Origin: Gemmatimonadaceae bacterium
GTDB lineage: Bacteria; Gemmatimonadota; Gemmatimonadetes; Gemmatimonadales; Gemmatimonadaceae
DNA length: 64,000 bases
Assembly (NCBI GenBank): GCA_036504815.1
Contig: DASXUN010000021.1
Coordinates: forward strand, 62,001 to 126,000
Reading direction: 5' to 3'
Shown: one piece after another, positions 9,628-64,000 of the stretch
How the letters are laid out: every line of letters begins with the position of its first letter
Numbering within the stretch: position 1 is the stretch's first letter
The notes under the pieces: generated by a model
The model's database searches: none
What the model was told of the DNA's origin: nothing
Seen by the model: the letters and a program-made list of their open reading frames with translations, nothing else
Position numbers and translations under genes: made by a program

Positions 9628-11706
9628 CTACATTCGCCCGGTGGTGAGTTCGCGCACCACGCGATCGGCCCGGTACACATACGCCAGCGCCTCCTGAATG
9701 GCGCGCACATCCACCATCACGTTACGGCCGCGCTCGGGCAGGTAGATATAGTCGCGCACCAGCGCATTGATGTTGCGGTCGAAGTTGAGCCCGACAATGC
9801 GCAGGTCCTTCGTCACGGCCGGCGAACCGGAATTGCCACCGTAGCTGTCGGCGGTCGAGACGAAGTTGAGTGGCGTGCCGAGATCCAGGCCGACCGGCGG
9901 CACGCGCCAGCGATACGGCAGGTCCCAGTCGCTCCCCGCGCCATGGCTGCGATTTCGGTCGTAGACGCCATAGAACGTCGTGAAGGGCGCGGCCAGCGTG
10001 CCGTTGTATTCGTACCCCTTCACTACACCGTCGGCGATGCGTGGCGATGACGACCCGTCCGGCGGGATGTTTGATCCGTAGAGTTCGAACCGCACCCGGC
10101 CGATCTGCGCCGAGAGCGCCGCTTCCTCCACATTGATGCGCGCCTGTTCCAGTTCGAAGGCGAGCACGCTGGGCATGATTGTGTTCATCAACTGCATCAC
10201 GGGGTCTGTGGCCAGCTCCCCGGCGGCGGCACGGCGCGCACCGGCAGTGTCGGTGAGCGCCGTCGCGCTGAGCATCGCGTCGGCCGCTTCGGCGGCGGTA
10301 CGCTCGCCCAGCGCGGCACGGGTGAACTCATGCCCGGCGCCGTACGCCGTGGCGATGTCGTCGAGCGAAATGGCCAGGTAGCGGCGCTCCAGGTCGCGCA
10401 CCTGCGGACGCACGCGCGCGAGCCGCTGCTGGAAGGCCGGCACGCTGTCGGCGGGACCATGCTGCACCCGCCACGCCCAGTACCCGGCCTGCAGCGTCGA
10501 ACTGCTCGCCGCGGGGCTGACCAAATTTGAGAAGGCCGTGAGCGCGGTGCGGGACTTCGTCCGCTGGCGCTGCAGCTCGGTCATCCGGTCGAACAGCTTG
10601 CCGTACGTGCTCTTCAACTCGGACGTCGCCTGGATGGCGTTCACCAGGTCGCGTTCGATGGCCGACCGGCGTCCCATGATGTTGGCATCGCGGAGTCCTT
10701 CGAGCCGTCCCGGAATCGGTTTCCAGCTGTTCGACAGGCTGAGCATCGTGACCATCGCATCGGCCCGCTGCCGTTCGTCGTTGCTCGCATCGCGGAACGC
10801 CTTGAGCGCGGCCAGATGCGACGACAGGAAATGCTCGGTATATGGCAGCGCGACGTCGCGCTGATATTCCAGTTGGCTGATCGTCGTGAGGCGCCGCGTC
10901 GCGCCGGGGTTGCCGATCACGAAGACGACGTCGCCTTCCTTGACGCCGTTGACGCCGCCCCACGCGAAGTGCGCCGGACTCGCGACGGGCTTGCCGTCGG
11001 CGCCATAGGCGCGCATCACCGCGAAGTCGAGTGCATAACGCGGGAAGGTGAAGTTGTCCCAGTCGCCGCCGAGGTTGGCCACGCCGAGTTCCGCGGCAAC
11101 GACCAGACGGACATCGGTGTAGCGCTTGAAGACGTAGGCCGAGGCGCGGGCACCGTTGTACAGCCCCACCACCTGCACCCAGATGGAGTCGCCGGGCGAC
11201 GCATACTGGGCCTTCAGCCGATTCTGCGCCGCGGCCGTTGCCGCGCGCCGTGCGTCGTCGCGCGCGGCCCCTTCGCCCGCTGCATCGCCTGCGGCGTTCA
11301 CTTCCTTCGAGATATCGACCGCCGCGAGCAGCTGGTCGGCAATCATGTTCGGCAGGCGCCGTTCATCGGCGAGAGTCCGCGCGACGAACCCCGAGTCGAG
11401 CAGGTGTTCGCCCGGCCGGCTGATGGCGTTCACCGACCCCCGTACGCAGTGATGATTCGTGATGATCAGCCCGTTCTCCGAGACGAACGCAGCCGAGCAG
11501 CCGGGAATGCGCAGCGCGGCAAGGCGGGCGCGGGCAAACCAGGCGGAATCCGCCGCGAACCCGTACGTCTTCGAGAAGTATTCGGACGGGGCGTACTCGA
11601 ACGTCCACATCTTTCCCAGGTCGAATCGACCGGGAGAGACCGCGGACTGGGCGGAGAGCGAGGCGGCCGTGCACGCGGCAAGGAAGAGCGCGCGAATGAA
11701 GCGCAT
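9628..11706 (-). CDS. S46-family dipeptidyl-peptidase, secreted
   Basis: A 692-residue exported serine peptidase of the DPP7/DPP11 family. The signal peptide ends at about residue 20 (SLSAQ). The chymotrypsin-like double barrel is split by a helical domain. The catalytic His lies in TNHHC (84-87) and the nucleophile is Ser626 in GGNSGSP. A conserved Asp-containing block, DNFTFPRYALDF, lies between them. S46 enzymes remove N-terminal dipeptides in the periplasm or outside the cell and are typical of asaccharolytic Bacteroidota and related phyla. The ATG at 11706 is chosen because it begins the signal peptide; the frame extends 31 codons further up without sense. It is divergent from the MHS transporter. 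Confidence 0.92.
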   Translation of the reverse strand: MRFIRALFLAACTAASLSAQSAVSPGRFDLGKMWTFEYAPSEYFSKTYGFAADSAWFARARLAALRIPGCSAAFVSENGLIITNHHCVRGSVNAISRPGEHLLDSGFVARTLADERRLPNMIADQLLAAVDISKEVNAAGDAAGEGAARDDARRAATAAAQNRLKAQYASPGDSIWVQVVGLYNGARASAYVFKRYTDVRLVVAAELGVANLGGDWDNFTFPRYALDFAVMRAYGADGKPVASPAHFAWGGVNGVKEGDVVFVIGNPGATRRLTTISQLEYQRDVALPYTEHFLSSHLAALKAFRDASNDERQRADAMVTMLSLSNSWKPIPGRLEGLRDANIMGRRSAIERDLVNAIQATSELKSTYGKLFDRMTELQRQRTKSRTALTAFSNLVSPAASSSTLQAGYWAWRVQHGPADSVPAFQQRLARVRPQVRDLERRYLAISLDDIATAYGAGHEFTRAALGERTAAEAADAMLSATALTDTAGARRAAAGELATDPVMQLMNTIMPSVLAFELEQARINVEEAALSAQIGRVRFELYGSNIPPDGSSSPRIADGVVKGYEYNGTLAAPFTTFYGVYDRNRSHGAGSDWDLPYRWRVPPVGLDLGTPLNFVSTADSYGGNSGSPAVTKDLRIVGLNFDRNINALVRDYIYLPERGRNVMVDVRAIQEALAYVYRADRVVRELTTGRM

Positions 11707-56914: not shown

Positions 56915-58822
56915 TCACGCCACCATTTCATCAAAGTTCGCCAGGTCCTGCAGCCGCGCGGCGTGACCCACCAGGTACGGCACTGCCGTCACCACCACGT
57001 GCGGCTTGAACATGAATGCCGTGCGGATGAACAGCGACGTCTTGTTGTGCAGCAGGTGCTCCCACCAGTGCCGCGGGACGATTTCCGGCACGACAATCGT
57101 GACCAGGTCGGTCTCGCCACGCATGGACAGTCCCTGCACGTAATCGACGATTGGGCGCAGCACCGATCGGAACGGCGACCGGATGACGATGAGCGGCACG
57201 CCGATGTCCCACGCCTCCCACGCCGCCACGAGTTTGGCCGTGTTCGCGTCGTCTACCTCCACATAGACCGCGCGCACGTCCTCCGAGATGGTCGTGGCGT
57301 AGACGAGTGATCCCGCCGTCGGCTTCGAAATGCCGTTGACCGGAACGATCACCGTGTGGTGCAGGAACATCAGCGGTGCCTGCCCGGTGTACGCCAGCTC
57401 CGCCGAGAAGCGTTCATAGTGACGGTGGATCCCCCGCAGCAGCAGGATGATCAGCGGGATGATGAGCACCACGATCCAGGCGCCGTGCGTGAACTTCGTC
57501 GCCACCTGCACCACCGTGACGAGCGCGGTCGCCACCGCGCCGAGGCCGTTGAGCGACGCTTTCCAGCGCCATCCGGGTTCACGGCACCTGAACCAGTGCA
57601 TCACCATTCCCGTCTGCGACAGCGTGAAGCAGACAAAGACGCCGATCGCGTACAACGGAATCAGCGCGCTTGTCTCGCCGGCGAACATCCAGACAAGCAG
57701 GATCGCCATCAGCGCCAGCACGATGATGCCGTTGGAGAAGGCCAGCCGGTCACCGCGCGCCGCGAACTGGCGCGGCATGTAGCCGTCGGTGGCGAGGATA
57801 CTGGCGAGGCGCGGAAAGTCGGCGAAGGCGGTGTTGGCCGCGAGCACAAGGACCGCAAAGGTTGCGTATTGCAGCGCATAATAGAGCGCGCCTCCCCCAA
57901 ACACCTGCCGGCCGATCTGCGACAGCACGGTCTCGGTCTCGCTCGGCATCACGCCGTAGTGCCGCGCGAGGTAGCTCGTCCCGATGAAGAAGGTCGCGAG
58001 GATCGCAGCCATCCACCCCAGCGTCGTCGCCGCATTACGGGCGCTCGGCTTGCGGAATGCGCCAACCCCGTTGGAAATCGCCTCGGTGCCGGTCATCGCT
58101 ACGCACCCCTCGGCGAAGGCGCGCAGCAGCAGGTACGTCAGCGCAAAGCCTGCCGGAAATCCCAGCGGATGTTGCGCCGCGCTCACCGCATCCACATGCG
58201 GGGTGGTGGTCAGCGGTGCCAGGTCGTGGCCCATCACTCCGCGAATTACGCCGGTGGCGATGAGCGCCAGCATCAACGCGATGAAGAGGTACGTGGGCAC
58301 GCTGAACGCAATCCCAGACTCGCGCACGCCGCGCAGGTTCACGAGCATCAGCATGACGATGGCGCTGACACCCAGCGCCACGGTATGCGGCGCGAGTTGC
58401 GGATAGGCCGACGTGATGGCCGCCACGCCGCCCGAAATCGAGACGGACACGGTCAGCACATAGTCCGTCAGCAGCGCCGCGGCGGCCACGAGCCCCGGTC
58501 CGGTGCCGAGGTTCTCCTTGGCGACCGTGTAGCTGCCACCTCCGGCCGGGTACGCAAAGATCGTCTGGCGGTACGACACGGCCACCAGCACCAGCAGGCC
58601 GACGATGATTGCCGAGATGGGAATGATGTACTGCAGCGCCACGGCGCCGAGGATCGCCAGCACGAGCAGCGTCTGTTCGGTGGCATAGGCCACGGACGAG
58701 ATCGCGTCGGACGACAGCACGGCGAGCGCCGTCTTCTTGTTGAGCCGCTCGTGTTCCAGCCGGTCCGATGAGAGTGGCCGGCCGAACAGGACGCGCTTGA
58801 ATTGCACGATGGGTGAGGTCAC
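56915..58822 (-). CDS. kimA: KimA-like potassium importer (APC superfamily)
   Basis: A 635-residue protein with 12 helices and a soluble C-terminal domain of about 150 residues. The N-terminus KKTALAVLSSDAISSVAYAT and YPAGGGSYTVAKENLG closely match Bacillus KimA (YdaO), a high-affinity potassium:proton symporter inhibited by c-di-AMP. TDYVLTVSVSISGGVAAITS and GTEAISNGVGAFRKP also fit. The start is a GTG at 58822. It lies directly downstream of a KdpD-like kinase gene, which supports a potassium role. Some family members may carry amino acids instead. Confidence 0.85.
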   Translation of the reverse strand: MTSPIVQFKRVLFGRPLSSDRLEHERLNKKTALAVLSSDAISSVAYATEQTLLVLAILGAVALQYIIPISAIIVGLLVLVAVSYRQTIFAYPAGGGSYTVAKENLGTGPGLVAAAALLTDYVLTVSVSISGGVAAITSAYPQLAPHTVALGVSAIVMLMLVNLRGVRESGIAFSVPTYLFIALMLALIATGVIRGVMGHDLAPLTTTPHVDAVSAAQHPLGFPAGFALTYLLLRAFAEGCVAMTGTEAISNGVGAFRKPSARNAATTLGWMAAILATFFIGTSYLARHYGVMPSETETVLSQIGRQVFGGGALYYALQYATFAVLVLAANTAFADFPRLASILATDGYMPRQFAARGDRLAFSNGIIVLALMAILLVWMFAGETSALIPLYAIGVFVCFTLSQTGMVMHWFRCREPGWRWKASLNGLGAVATALVTVVQVATKFTHGAWIVVLIIPLIILLLRGIHRHYERFSAELAYTGQAPLMFLHHTVIVPVNGISKPTAGSLVYATTISEDVRAVYVEVDDANTAKLVAAWEAWDIGVPLIVIRSPFRSVLRPIVDYVQGLSMRGETDLVTIVVPEIVPRHWWEHLLHNKTSLFIRTAFMFKPHVVVTAVPYLVGHAARLQDLANFDEMVA

Positions 58823-58902: not shown

Positions 58903-60336
58903 CTACGGCTCCCCAGGAGCCGCTGGCGCGTCGGTCGCTGGCAGTTCGAAGGCGAACACCGCCCCACCGCCCTCACGCCCTTCGAATCTCAGCGCGCCAC
59001 CCATCGACTCGGCCAACCCGCGCGCGATCGAGAGCCCCAACCCAGTCCCGCCGACGCCGGCCGCTGTCGCACGCGACCGGTAGAACGGCTCGAAGATCCG
59101 CTCTTGCTCGGCCGGTGGCACGCCTGGACCGCGGTCCATCACCGCCAGCGTGACCCGGTCGCCTTCGCGGCGGATGCACAGGTCGATGGGTGCCGTCGAC
59201 GGCGAGTACTTGGCCGCATTCTCCAGCAGGTTCACCAGCACGCGCAGTGCGTCGGTAAAGACAAAGCGCCCGCTGAGGATCTCTTCCGGCCCGTCGATGG
59301 CGACCAACCGATCCTTGAGCACCGCGCGGGATTGCTGTAGTGCGGCGCCGACCAGGTCATCGATCGTCTCAATGGCGGAGGCCGGTCGCACCGCCCCCGC
59401 CTGGATGCGGGAGAATTCCAGCATGTCCCCGATCAGCGCGTTGAGCCGGTCGGCGGCCACTTCGATATCGGCGGCCGCGCGCGGGTCGCCGCCATCCGCG
59501 ATCTCGTGCGCAATCCCCTTGATGCTCGTGAGCGGAGTGCGCAGGTCGTGCGACACCGAGGTGAGCAGGGCATTGCGGAGCGACTCCATCCGCTGATGCG
59601 TCTCGGCGCGCTCCGCGACTTCCGTCAGCCGCACCCGTTCGACACCGAGCGCCGCGTAGTACGCCAGCGCATCGAGCAGTCGCCGCCGTTCCGGCGTGAG
59701 GCCTATGCCGCGAGCATCCTCGATGCGCAGGGCGCCCACGGGCGTGTCGCGCACGCGCAGCGGCAGCAGCAGTTCCCGTTCGCTGTCCTGGGTCTCCGCG
59801 AGTTCTGCAGGCACCGGATGCTCGATGACCGCGCAGTATTCCACGCCGAGAATCGACTGGATCACCCCGACGATGGCACCCAGCGCGTCGCGGGCGTCGG
59901 CGGCGTTGAGCGATTCAGCCCCCAGCGCAGCCAGCCGGTCGATTTCGGTGGCGCGTGCCTGGGCATCCATCGCTTCACGGTTCGCGCGGTAAAGCAGTTG
60001 GGCGGCCACCAGGCTCGTCACCAGGAACGTCGCCAGCACCACCAGGTCCATCGGGTGGGCGATCGTGAACGTCCCGAGCGGCGGCAGGAAGAAGAAGTTC
60101 AGCAGGAGAAAGGCCGCGACCGACACCGAGATGCCAAGTGTGCGGCCGCCGGCGCTGCTTGCCCCGAGCACGACGAGCAGGAGGAGGAGCGCGACGTGCG
60201 CCTTGTCGAGGTATTCGCGACCGGCAATCATTGCCGCCGTGAGCGCCGCCAGCGCCACGAACCACGTCAGCCAGGCACGCAGTGGCGCGGGGCGGCGGAC
60301 GGCAGCCGACTCTCGATCAGGGCGCGCCATCGGCAT
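58903..60336 (-). CDS. kdpD: KdpD-like sensor histidine kinase lacking the N-terminal KdpD/Usp region
   Basis: A 477-residue kinase corresponding to the C-terminal half of KdpD: four helices of a DUF4118 domain (about 18-115, with LLNFFFLPPLGTFTIAHPMD), a GAF-like domain (about 135-238), a HisKA domain with His263 in SVSHDLRTPLTSIKG, and an HATPase domain with LLENAAKYSP, DRGPGVPPAEQ and GTGLGLSIARG. The usual roughly 390-residue cytoplasmic KdpD plus Usp input region is absent. It overlaps the kdpE gene by 20 bases. Start at the ATG at 60336; one at 60330 is equally possible. Confidence 0.88.
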   Translation of the reverse strand: MPMARPDRESAAVRRPAPLRAWLTWFVALAALTAAMIAGREYLDKAHVALLLLLVVLGASSAGGRTLGISVSVAAFLLLNFFFLPPLGTFTIAHPMDLVVLATFLVTSLVAAQLLYRANREAMDAQARATEIDRLAALGAESLNAADARDALGAIVGVIQSILGVEYCAVIEHPVPAELAETQDSERELLLPLRVRDTPVGALRIEDARGIGLTPERRRLLDALAYYAALGVERVRLTEVAERAETHQRMESLRNALLTSVSHDLRTPLTSIKGIAHEIADGGDPRAAADIEVAADRLNALIGDMLEFSRIQAGAVRPASAIETIDDLVGAALQQSRAVLKDRLVAIDGPEEILSGRFVFTDALRVLVNLLENAAKYSPSTAPIDLCIRREGDRVTLAVMDRGPGVPPAEQERIFEPFYRSRATAAGVGGTGLGLSIARGLAESMGGALRFEGREGGGAVFAFELPATDAPAAPGEP

Positions 60337-61066
60337 CCGGTTCGTAACGATATCCCACGCCCGGTTCTGTCTGGAGGTACCGTGGACGCATCGGGTCCCG
60401 CTCGATCTTGCGGCGCAGGTGGCCCACGTACACCCGCAAGTATTGCGGGGCGTCGCCCTCTGAGTTGCCCCACACCGCCGTGAAGAGCTGCCGGTGTGTC
60501 AGCGTCTTGCGCGGATTCTCGATGAACGTGCGCAGCAGTGCCCATTCGGTGGGCGTCAGGTGGATCACCACCTCGCCGCGCGCCACGCGGCGCAGGGCCA
60601 GGTCAACGGTCAGGTCGCCGATCGTCACCCGATCACCCGCCGTCGTCGGGCCGCCAACCTGGCTTGCGCGGCGTAATTGGGCGCGCGCACGCGCGAGGAG
60701 TTCCACGGTGCTGAACGGCTTCGTCATGTAGTCATCGGCGCCGGCGTCGAGCAGCGCCGCCTTCTCCGTGTCCTCGTGGCGCGCCGAGAGCACGATAATC
60801 GGCGCGCGACTCCAACGGCGGATTTCGCGGCAGACCGCAATGCCCGTCAGATCGGGCAAACCCAAGTCCAGAATGATCAGGGCCGGCAGTTCCGCCGCCG
60901 CAATGTCGATCCCGTCGCGTCCCGTCGCCGCCTCCAGCGCGCGCACGGCGGGTGGCGGGCCAGCGTCACCCACGGCGAGCGCCTCTGCCTTCAGTGCGTT
61001 GCGCACCACGCGGCGGATCTGCGGCTCGTCATCGATCACCAGCACGGAGAACGGCACACCATTCAT
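60317..61066 (-). CDS. kdpE: KdpE-like OmpR-family response regulator
   Basis: A 249-residue regulator. The receiver has acidic residues Asp12-Asp13 in LVIDDEPQIRR, phosphoacceptor Asp67 in IILDLGLPD, Ser94 and Lys116 in MTKPFS. An extra loop of about 15 residues (near 37-52) expands the region after helix 1. The C-terminal winged helix (HLTPTEWALLRTF through GYRYEPD) is KdpE-like. It should control transcription of a potassium transporter, here perhaps the adjacent kimA gene. The ATG at 61066 is chosen because MNGVPFSVLVIDDEP is the family start; a longer frame upstream has no homology. Confidence 0.9.
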   Translation of the reverse strand: MNGVPFSVLVIDDEPQIRRVVRNALKAEALAVGDAGPPPAVRALEAATGRDGIDIAAAELPALIILDLGLPDLTGIAVCREIRRWSRAPIIVLSARHEDTEKAALLDAGADDYMTKPFSTVELLARARAQLRRASQVGGPTTAGDRVTIGDLTVDLALRRVARGEVVIHLTPTEWALLRTFIENPRKTLTHRQLFTAVWGNSEGDAPQYLRVYVGHLRRKIERDPMRPRYLQTEPGVGYRYEPDADGAP

Positions 61067-61219
61067 CGTCGGAATGTCCAGGACAGGTGCATTGATGCTG
61101 GTGGATCTCGCGGGCTGGCGAAAGGGGCGCCGCCACGCGTCGGCGTTCTTCACCATTCGTTTATGTACGGGGCGGCGCTCTTCATGCGCAATTCACGCCC
61201 ATCGTTGCACTCTGCAGCC

Positions 61220-61659: not shown

Positions 61660-64000
61660 ATGAGTCCGCCGCCTCCTGCCCTGCTGCACGATTTCTTCAC
61701 GCGCTCGGCCGCGCGTTGGCCGCAGCACGTCGCCGTCGACGTTCCGCCTGGCCGTCTGCGTCCGCATCGGCATCGCACCACCTACGCGGAACTCGACCGG
61801 CAATCCAATGCCGTGGCCCATGCGCTGGCGCCATTCGTCAGGCAGGAATGCATCGTCGCCATTCTCCTGCCGCGCACCAGTGCCCAGCTGTACGCCGCCC
61901 AGATCGGCGTGATGAAGGCCGGCGCCGCCTATGCCTGCTTCGACCTCGCCTTCCCGGATGAACGGCTGCGCGACACGTTCGCCGACGCCCAGCCTGCCGC
62001 CCTGCTGACCGACGCGCTTGGACGCGCCCGCGCAATCGCTGCCGGCTTTCCAGTCGAGCGCATCCTCGACGTCGTCGACCTGTCGCATCAGCATCCGCAG
62101 CCCACGGCGCCGCCGGCGCCGGCCTGGCTTACGCCCGCCTCGCTCGCCTACGTCATCTACACGTCAGGCACGACGGGACGCCCCAAGGGCGTGATGATCG
62201 AGCACCGCTCGATCTGCAACCTGGTGCAGTCCGACATCGACGCGTTCGCGCTCACTCCGGACGATCGCGCGGTACAGGGCTCGTCGGCCGCCTACGATTC
62301 CTCGGTGGAGGAACTGTGGCTGGCCTTTGCCGCCGGCGCCACCATCGTGGTCGCCGACGAGGACACCGCGCGCCTCGGCCCCGACCTTATCGGCTGGCTG
62401 CGCGACGAACGCGTGACCGTCTTCTGCCCGCCGCCGACGTTGTTGCGCGCGACCGGATGCGAGAACCCCGCGCAGGAGCTCCCAGCGCTCCGCCTGCTGT
62501 ACGTTGGCGGTGAGGCACTGCCGCAGGACGTGGCCGATCGATGGGCCCACGGCCGTTCGCTGGTGAACGGCTATGGCCCCACCGAGTGCTCGGTGACCTG
62601 CTCGCGTGCGCATATCACCGTCGGCGCGCCGGTCACCATCGGCATCCCGATCCACAACGTGCAGGCGTGGATCGTTGACGAGTCGCTCGAGCCCGTCCCC
62701 GATGGCGTGCCGGGAGAGCTGGTCTTTGGCGGCGCTTGCCTCGCACGCGGCTACTGGAATCAGCCGGACCTCACCGCACAGCGCTTTTCGCATCACCCGA
62801 CGCTCGGCCGCATCTATCGCACCGGTGACAGTGCCCAGCGGGAAGCGGATGGCACGCTCATCTATCATGGACGGCTCGACGCGCAGGTGAAGTTGCGGGG
62901 ATATCGCGTGGAGTTGGGCGCCATCGAGGCCGCGCTTGTCGCCTGCGACGGCGTGCGGGAGGCCGCCTGCACCGTACAGGAGAGTGATGGCCGCCAGACG
63001 CTGGTCGCCTTCATCGTTCCCGAGATGATGGTGCCGGTGCCCAGTGCCGCCGAGTTGCAGGACGCGCTGCGGACGGTGTTGCCCCCATATATGGTGCCGT
63101 CGCACATCGCGCCGGTGGCCGCGCTCCCCACATCGATTGGCGGCAAACTTGACCGGCGCGCCCTGCCGCGCCTCGATGGCACGCCCGCCGGTGGCGAAGG
63201 CGTCGCACCGGACGATCCGCTCGAGTTCGCCATCGCCGAGGCCGTTCGGCACGTGCTGCGCATGGCGCAGTATCCCGATGTGTCCGCCGACTATTTCACA
63301 GCACTCGGCGGCGACTCGCTCAGCGCCGCGGAATTGGTCACGCGCCTGCGCAATGACCCGCGCACCAACGTGCTCGATGTGCGCGATGTGTACGAGGGGC
63401 GCACGGTGACGGCGCTCGCCGATCGGGTACGCGCACGGGCACCCCGGCAGACGGATGCGCCCGTCAGCGAGACGACCTTGGCGCTCGACGCACCGGTCCT
63501 CGGCCTCACGGTACGACAGACGCTGGCCCTGATCCGTTCGCTGCTGGTCGGATCCGCGGCCCTCTGGCTGGTCGCCTTCAAACTGCTGCCAGCAGTCGTG
63601 CGCGCCATCGGCGTGGTACCCACGGTGATTCTCGCCCCACCGGCGGCGCTGATCGCCGTCTTGGCATGGGCACCCATCGCCGTGGCGCTTGCCGTCTCCA
63701 CCAAGCGCCGGCTTATCGGCACTTACACCCCTGGGCGCGTGCGCGTGTGGAGCGCGGCATTCTTGCCGCACTGGCTGGTGCAGCAGGCCGTGAAGTCGAT
63801 TCCGTGGTGGATTCTCGAAGGCACCGAGTTCCAGGTGATGGCCCTGCGGGCGCTCGGCGCGCGCATCGGCCGGCGCGTGCATATCCACCGCGGCGTCGTG
63901 CTCCTGCGCGGTGGGTGGGACCTGCTGGAGATCGGCGACGATGTCACCCTCTCGCAGGATGCGGCCGTCCGCATTGCCGAACTCGACGCCGGCCACCTTG
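61660..64000 (+). CDS. Pls/PosA-type nonribosomal peptide synthetase, 3' end beyond the window
   Basis: About 780 residues are visible and the frame stays open at the edge. An adenylation domain (about 10-515) has YTSGTTGRPKG (166-176), NGYGPTE, YRTGD and GGKLDRRALP. A carrier domain follows, with the phosphopantetheine Ser553 in LGGDSLS. From about 615 there are hydrophobic helices (about 628-690), then a left-handed-helix-like hexapeptide region (GARIGRRVHIHRGV). This order (A, carrier, membrane segments, acyltransferase-like repeats) is that of epsilon-poly-L-lysine synthetase Pls and PosA-type enzymes, which make linear homopolymers of one amino acid. By-eye pocket residues read D-S-E-C-Y-G-G-V-T-K; the leading Asp indicates an alpha-amino acid. 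There is no condensation or thioesterase domain so far. Confidence 0.88.
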   Translation, partial: MSPPPPALLHDFFTRSAARWPQHVAVDVPPGRLRPHRHRTTYAELDRQSNAVAHALAPFVRQECIVAILLPRTSAQLYAAQIGVMKAGAAYACFDLAFPDERLRDTFADAQPAALLTDALGRARAIAAGFPVERILDVVDLSHQHPQPTAPPAPAWLTPASLAYVIYTSGTTGRPKGVMIEHRSICNLVQSDIDAFALTPDDRAVQGSSAAYDSSVEELWLAFAAGATIVVADEDTARLGPDLIGWLRDERVTVFCPPPTLLRATGCENPAQELPALRLLYVGGEALPQDVADRWAHGRSLVNGYGPTECSVTCSRAHITVGAPVTIGIPIHNVQAWIVDESLEPVPDGVPGELVFGGACLARGYWNQPDLTAQRFSHHPTLGRIYRTGDSAQREADGTLIYHGRLDAQVKLRGYRVELGAIEAALVACDGVREAACTVQESDGRQTLVAFIVPEMMVPVPSAAELQDALRTVLPPYMVPSHIAPVAALPTSIGGKLDRRALPRLDGTPAGGEGVAPDDPLEFAIAEAVRHVLRMAQYPDVSADYFTALGGDSLSAAELVTRLRNDPRTNVLDVRDVYEGRTVTALADRVRARAPRQTDAPVSETTLALDAPVLGLTVRQTLALIRSLLVGSAALWLVAFKLLPAVVRAIGVVPTVILAPPAALIAVLAWAPIAVALAVSTKRRLIGTYTPGRVRVWSAAFLPHWLVQQAVKSIPWWILEGTEFQVMALRALGARIGRRVHIHRGVVLLRGGWDLLEIGDDVTLSQDAAVRIAELDAGHL

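Follow-up and report, generated by a model that had tools for sequence, protein, structure and literature searches.

The 64,000-nucleotide stretch of Gemmatimonadaceae DNA analyzed here (the window) ends within a gene whose product, in our judgment, is probably a Pls/PosA-type polymerase, a membrane-bound enzyme which uses a single module iteratively on amino acids and represents a diverged branch of this family. Its adenylation domain is predicted to activate a single cationic amino acid as the AMP ester and to load it onto the adjoining carrier, following which a three-domain terminal part, seated on six membrane helices, would link the residues so loaded into a short homopolymer, which it probably also passes out of the cell. 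Polymerization and export, as well as a presumed antimicrobial use, are ascribed to the enzyme by analogy with characterized members of the family. The aspects of this branch that are new are its breadth and uniformity, together with a recurring, co-diverging neighbor gene which encodes a SET-domain protein.

The synthetase gene opens with an ATG at window position 61660 and its stop codon is located at position 127637 of the contig (C21), 1637 bases beyond the window end, specifying a full-length protein of 1325 amino acids. The features of the window portion, and those of two neighboring genes, are as follows:

58903-60336, minus strand: sensor kinase, KdpD-like (Pfam; best NCBIfam match KdpD, below cut-off)
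60317-61156, minus strand: response regulator, KdpE-like (Pfam; best NCBIfam match KdpE, below cut-off)
61660-64000, plus strand: Pls/PosA-like synthetase, residues 1 to 780 of 1325 (remainder outside the window, to G000:C21:127637)
61660-63198, plus strand: adenylation domain, residues 1 to 513 (Pfam, AlphaFold model, fold comparison)
63232-63429, plus strand: carrier (thiolation) domain, residues 525 to 590 (Pfam; GGDSL motif, attachment Ser at residue 553)
63520-63708, plus strand: membrane helix pair 1, residues 621 to 683 (hydropathy; AlphaFold helices)
63739-64000, plus strand: start of the hexapeptide-type domain C1 (C2 and C3 lie beyond the window)

Pfam analysis of the synthetase identified AMP-binding (residues 13 to 366), AMP-binding_C (residues 422 to 496) and PP-binding (residues 525 to 590) domains and a weak, sub-threshold Hexapep match at residues 785 to 815, while condensation, thioesterase and reductase models were not matched anywhere in the 1325 residues. 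A motif scan located the carrier motif GGDSL at residue 550, with HHxxxDG and GxSxG both being absent. The AlphaFold model of the adenylation domain (pLDDT 91.5) aligned in fold comparisons with the adenylation domain of PosA (8g98; Z 49.1) and with TycA (5n81; Z 53.6). Hydropathy analysis revealed six hydrophobic segments forming three pairs, and the AlphaFold2 model of residues 607 to 1325 (pLDDT 92.4, pTM 0.91) comprises three pairs of long helices, each of which is followed by a run of short strands. The first-pass annotation had described adenylation and carrier domains followed by membrane segments and a hexapeptide region, with no condensation domain, and this description is borne out by Pfam, hydropathy and AlphaFold2 alike; the sequence past position 64000 encodes no standard condensation, reductase or thioesterase domain, and the three tandem C-terminal acyltransferase-like domains which it had anticipated are present in the prediction.

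These terminal domains (C1, C2 and C3) are mutually, if weakly, alike, with E values of 1.7e-7 for C1/C2, 2e-4 for C1/C3 and 0.004 for C2/C3, and C1 resembles hexapeptide acetyltransferases in a fold search (best Z 15.2, rmsd 2.8, 149 residues aligned). When the terminal part was used as the query, the matches listed comprised only single hexapeptide domains, with no solved whole Pls/PosA terminal part among them. The PosA terminal part has been described as six helices and three beta-helices (PMC10522769), to which the fold predicted here conforms. Across an alignment of seven branch sequences and five typical Pls/PosA enzymes, 43 terminal-part positions are identical, among which are Q1253, H1255, E1258 and K1263 of C3. 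At the level of sequence, the domain order, the intact adenylation and carrier motifs, the conserved terminal residues and the pocket composition discussed below are all evident.

The synthetase matches the NCBIfam model of the Pls/PosA terminal part, TIGR02353, over positions 3 to 694 of 695 (E 1.4e-104), although its score of 350.9 bits does not reach the curated cut-off of 423.1 bits, and we therefore refer to it as belonging to a diverged branch rather than as a curated member. A Streptomyces linear-plasmid protein with 52% identity to the window synthetase scores similarly (356.1 bits), an E value matched to the cut-off was reached by 6 of 46 sequences (41 from the branch and five typical enzymes), and none of the 118 genomes in the bacterial family of the window organism encodes a protein which passes the cut-off. 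Features of the Pls/PosA family are present, namely, an adenylation domain and carrier unaccompanied by condensation or thioesterase domains and, by prediction, six membrane helices arranged as three pairs, along with three terminal domains in tandem. In a phylogenetic tree, the branch was separated from the five typical enzymes with full SH-aLRT support; this tree, which omits L048, was rooted on the typical enzymes and so presupposes the split, and its typical set includes no full-length lysine enzyme. The suggestion of a Pls/PosA-type layout holds, while the accompanying step to lysine is not supported, owing to the residue at pocket position 2 and to a published assay of the same pocket code, both of which are detailed below.

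When 84,980 named species genomes were scanned, 126 relatives emerged, and the 80 best were carried forward. The branch is distributed across Gemmatimonadota, Verrucomicrobiota, Planctomycetota, Acidobacteriota, Armatimonadota, Bdellovibrionota and Actinomycetota, these phylum labels being derived from metagenome-assembled genome (MAG) titles, which may mislead for mis-binned contigs such as L059. The latter contig is labeled Phycisphaerae, and its product shares 85% identity over 362 residues with a Gemmatimonadota terminal domain, reflecting either mis-binning or recent transfer. The closest sequences to the window synthetase among the best 80 of the 126 relatives are encoded by Gemmatimonadota MAGs. 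Within the phylum of the window organism, the branch was detected in 6 of 298 genomes (2 of 119 genera), and within its genus in 7 of 11 genomes, one of which (G003) carries two copies, on contigs C36 and C8. Among viral contigs, 46 stretches fit the search pattern and none encodes a relative. The earlier remark that such enzymes are best known from Streptomyces is accurate for the classical family and not for this branch, which is spread over many phyla.

The specificity code of the adenylation domain, D-S-E-C-Y-G-G-V-T-K, had been read by eye in the first-pass annotation and was reproduced here through alignment, a procedure which, when applied as a control to PosA of Acinetobacter baumannii, returned the published code DMEHNGTVSK. 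The contributing residues (all assigned by alignment) are located as follows:

62296-62310, plus strand: D213, S214 and E217, code positions 1 to 3
62425-62427, plus strand: C256, code position 4
62500-62508, plus strand: Y281 and G283, code positions 5 and 6
62569-62598, plus strand: G304, V312 and T313, code positions 7 to 9
63145-63147, plus strand: K496, code position 10

The first 12 branch sequences read all carry DSECYGGVTK, as do 62 of the 73 loci with ten readable positions among the best 80 of the 126 relatives, a selection which favors near relatives, so that this uniformity describes the branch and not the whole family. The D-S-E start, and with it the Asp and Glu at positions 1 and 3 that are characteristic of the Pls/PosA family, is present in 73 of 73 (near-duplicate sequences L045/L048, L079/L092, L091/L108 and L060/L061 being included in these counts and in those for the SET gene). 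The five typical enzymes possess codes of their own, all different from DSECYGGVTK.

Comparison with characterized systems places the window synthetase close in architecture to, and apart in pocket composition from, the known polymerases. PosA, the delta-poly-L-ornithine synthetase of A. baumannii (8g95-8g98; PMC10522769), exhibits the same succession of adenylation, thiolation and three terminal domains with six helices, and its code likewise has Asp in the first and Glu in the third position; identity to PosA amounts to 36% across the adenylation domain and 26% across the terminal part (L041), and the two codes differ, Thr304 of PosA being replaced by Gly. Pls, the epsilon-poly-L-lysine synthetase of Streptomyces, shares the overall layout, and its adenylation domain (7wew) was matched by sequence, whereas it carries Ala at code position 2, where the window synthetase, which scores below the TIGR02353 cut-off, carries Ser. 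A further counterpart is the Bdellovibrionales homologue OFZ39577.1 (PMC10522769), which belongs to a different phylum and whose ten-residue code is identical; a Bdellovibrionales MAG in our own set (L110) encodes an enzyme of the same branch with the same code and 41% identity to the window synthetase, and is likened to OFZ39577.1 on the basis of this code. DSECYGGVTK is already in print as an orphan code and is not new here.

The published work reports that Glu at position 3 is conserved in all cationic-polymer synthetases, and that position 2 is tied to the chain length of the substrate, being Ala in lysine enzymes, Met in the ornithine enzyme PosA and Phe in the diaminopropionate/diaminobutyrate (PDAP/PDAB) enzymes (PMC10522769). 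Patel and Gulick described exactly DSECYGGVTK in one Bdellovibrionales enzyme, the adenylation domain of which displayed modest activation of L-arginine, with none of the four known diamino acids giving higher activity; this assay concerned one adenylation domain of modest activity, and left the substrate open (PMC10522769). Since Glu at position 3 is common to all cationic-polymer synthetases, it does not single out lysine, and lysine is rendered unlikely by the assay of the same code and by Ser214 at position 2. The first-pass inference of a basic amino acid from this Glu remains fair, while the lysine specificity with which it was coupled does not, and lysine was discarded as the leading monomer. 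The monomer is likely to be cationic. By analogy with the sole published assay of the code, we propose that it lies outside the four known diamino acids and is arginine or a compound which the pocket would take for arginine. The side chain of arginine offers no amine suited to the isopeptide linkage which characterizes the known products, and a homopolymer of arginine would therefore require alpha linkage, or else the enzyme would use another monomer.

An all-ORF comparison of the regions surrounding the synthetase loci revealed one recurring cross-phylum neighbor, a protein of approximately 160 to 200 residues with SET and post-SET motifs (Pfam SET). Its gene is located directly upstream of the synthetase gene on the same strand, with a gap of -12 to 327 bases, in 33 of the 69 loci with at least 700 upstream bases. 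By phylum, this arrangement was present in Actinomycetota (12/13), Verrucomicrobiota (10/14), Planctomycetota (5/11), Armatimonadota (3/4), Pseudomonadota (2/3) and Acidobacteriota (1/8), that is, in six named phyla, and in none of the loci of Gemmatimonadota (0/8), Bdellovibrionota (0/3), Myxococcota (0/1) or Chloroflexota (0/1) or of the unassigned group (0/3); the SET gene was likewise absent upstream at all five typical Pls/PosA loci. The 80 loci span 1,345,723 bases, and all 34 matches to the SET subtype within them occupy this upstream position. Pairwise distances between SET proteins and those between synthetases are correlated (r 0.766 across 31 loci, a value which no permutation out of 2000 attained; 0.442 when restricted to 363 distant pairs), and the nearest neighbor is identical for both proteins in 16 of the 31 loci. 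Of 72,556 plasmid records, only four carry the SET subtype, and these are the same four which bear a close synthetase, the two genes being some 10 to 14 kb apart; these plasmids are near copies and represent a single event. The pair is also found in named actinomycete strains of Lentzea, Kutzneria and Amycolatopsis. Within open-license papers, no literature joining a SET domain to poly-L-lysine synthetase was found.

The association is, however, not a strict one. Mapping of SET presence onto the tree requires 14 changes, at least 12 of which are forced by starred branches, and, among 68 loci with a readable code and flank, the exact code is found in 31 of 32 with the SET gene and in 27 of 36 without it. 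Of the 25 genomes of SET-less loci, only that of Streptomyces melanogenes yielded a strong match to the SET subtype, with weak matches to ordinary SET proteins in eight and none in 16. The genome of the window organism encodes the SET subtype on an unlinked contig, C19, with 190 bits on the subtype profile, on which none of the other SET proteins scored exceeded 53; this gene (L140; positions 9790 to 10311, approximately) lies between genes which, by eye, encode PHP-like and metallo-beta-lactamase-like proteins. Across the 11 genomes of the genus, eight carry the SET gene (five with both genes and three with SET only), two the synthetase only and one neither, and there is no association between the two genes. 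Because the pocket is unchanged in its absence, because most SET-less genomes lack it and because no association exists within the genus, the SET enzyme is viewed as a frequent but dispensable partner, either a tailoring enzyme or, in some lineages, a supplier of the monomer; its designation as an obligatory monomer supplier was not adopted.

As regards the putative activity of the SET partner, a profile of 12 SET sequences searched against solved structures returned BurB of Burkholderia thailandensis (9l4t) as the top match with 62.9 bits, the next being a histone methyltransferase with 49.6 bits, which places the partner nearer to BurB than to histone-type SET proteins; a control profile of five ordinary SET proteins from related genomes retrieved histone methyltransferases, the highest scoring 132 bits, and did not include BurB among its best 60. 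BurB, which converts free methionine to S-methylmethionine (PMC12542666), shares with the SET partner its small size, the post-SET cysteines and a Y-x-[ST]-T-E stretch, and its gene also belongs to a cluster with a thiotemplate synthetase, although the relationship is distant (profile positions 34 to 150 of 176). In the BurB cluster, an adenylation domain loads the sulfonium acid with the aid of an acidic pocket residue (PMC7496086). These precedents make a methylated, permanently charged monomer conceivable here, and such a monomer is possible by analogy.

Other neighboring genes were less consistent. In the window, the KdpD/KdpE-like pair (58903 to 61156) is divergent from the synthetase gene and recurs mainly within the genus; beside it, at 56915 to 58822 on the minus strand, is a gene whose product belongs to the amino acid permease family and weakly matches a K+ transporter. 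A PMT_2-family gene, whose product is weakly ArnT-like, starts approximately one base after the synthetase stop codon, and is not among the neighbor families listed as recurring in at least four loci. The neighborhood in the window genome was discounted as a functional clue, as the regulatory pair is mainly of genus level and the PMT_2 gene is not listed as recurring. In one Gemmatimonadaceae lineage, an antiporter-like gene of the basic amino acid/polyamine type (TIGR00905 best, 225.5 bits, below cut-off) directly precedes the synthetase gene (L091:6777-8093 and its near copy L108:6654-7994). A gene for an HGSNAT_cat/DUF418 membrane acyltransferase lies directly downstream in four loci (L049:12190-13437, L103:12013-13233, L111:12112-13155 and L038:16382-17503; Pfam run on three), belonging to Verrucomicrobiota, Armatimonadota (twice) and Gemmatimonadota, which are too few to serve as a clue. 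Downstream of one typical Pls/PosA gene, carried by a Streptomyces plasmid (L029:5914-12633; code DFECLSAVTK), lie genes for diaminobutyrate transaminase and aspartate kinase, which point to a poly-diaminobutyrate product of that enzyme.

The polymerase reading draws on the full TIGR02353 span, the invariant terminal residues, the predicted PosA-like fold, the near-fixed pocket, the L-arginine activation measured for the same code and the antiporter-like neighbor in one lineage; counted against it are the score under the cut-off, the unsuitability of arginine for isopeptide linkage and the modest activity of the one adenylation domain assayed. It is considered unlikely that the enzyme is no polymerase and that its terminal part passes one or two residues on to another acceptor such as a lipid, a polyamine or a cell-envelope sugar, an activity with which the hexapeptide fold, typical of acyltransferases acting on sugars and amines, the poor fit of arginine to an isopeptide chain and the weakly ArnT-like product of the next gene would be compatible; the terminal residues are, however, conserved as in enzymes published as polymerizing, and the ArnT-like gene is not a listed recurrent neighbor.

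Some, albeit low, probability is attached to the view that the SET partner methylates the monomer or the finished chain (for example, yielding S-methylmethionine or N-methylated lysine) to produce a permanently charged polymer. The upstream position of the SET gene (33 of 69 loci, six named phyla), the confinement of all subtype matches to that position, the correlated distances, the shared plasmids (one event) and the proximity to BurB, set against the histone methyltransferases retrieved by the control, all argue for such a role, whereas the retention of the pocket without the SET gene, the lack of a strong match in 24 of the 25 SET-less genomes, the independent occurrence of the two genes in the genus and a similarity to BurB too distant to fix the substrate argue against it. 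That the enzyme instead produces epsilon-poly-L-lysine or another polymer of a known diamino acid is highly improbable: it has the Glu at position 3 of all known members and their domain layout, but position 2 is Ser rather than Ala, Met or Phe, the same code was published without preference for the four diamino acids (PMC10522769), and the branch is separate from the five typical enzymes, all of which carry other codes. The iterative polymerase of a cationic, possibly arginine-like monomer is the reading which we retain.

Seven natural diamino acid homopolymers have been counted, all produced by synthetases of one layout (PMC10522769). Judged by titles, no follow-up on PosA was on topic beyond the 2023 paper, and a literature search on gemmatimonads and polylysine returned only unrelated papers. 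It is doubtful that the SET protein, as a small-molecule methyltransferase, and the Pls/PosA-like synthetase constitute a pan-phylum module for a methylated cationic polymer (of S-methylmethionine or N-methyl-lysine); were this the case, the resulting natural poly-amino acid would bear a permanent charge and so differ from the known homopolymers, both genes would be kept apart in Gemmatimonadota like the window organism, and SET-less bearers would obtain the monomer otherwise or leave the chain unmethylated. The recurring SET gene provides a direct and testable clue to the monomer, and the large sister branch, its pocket almost invariant, extends across many phyla. As its building block is probably not lysine and a putative methyltransferase gene often accompanies it, the product may be a new natural polymer.
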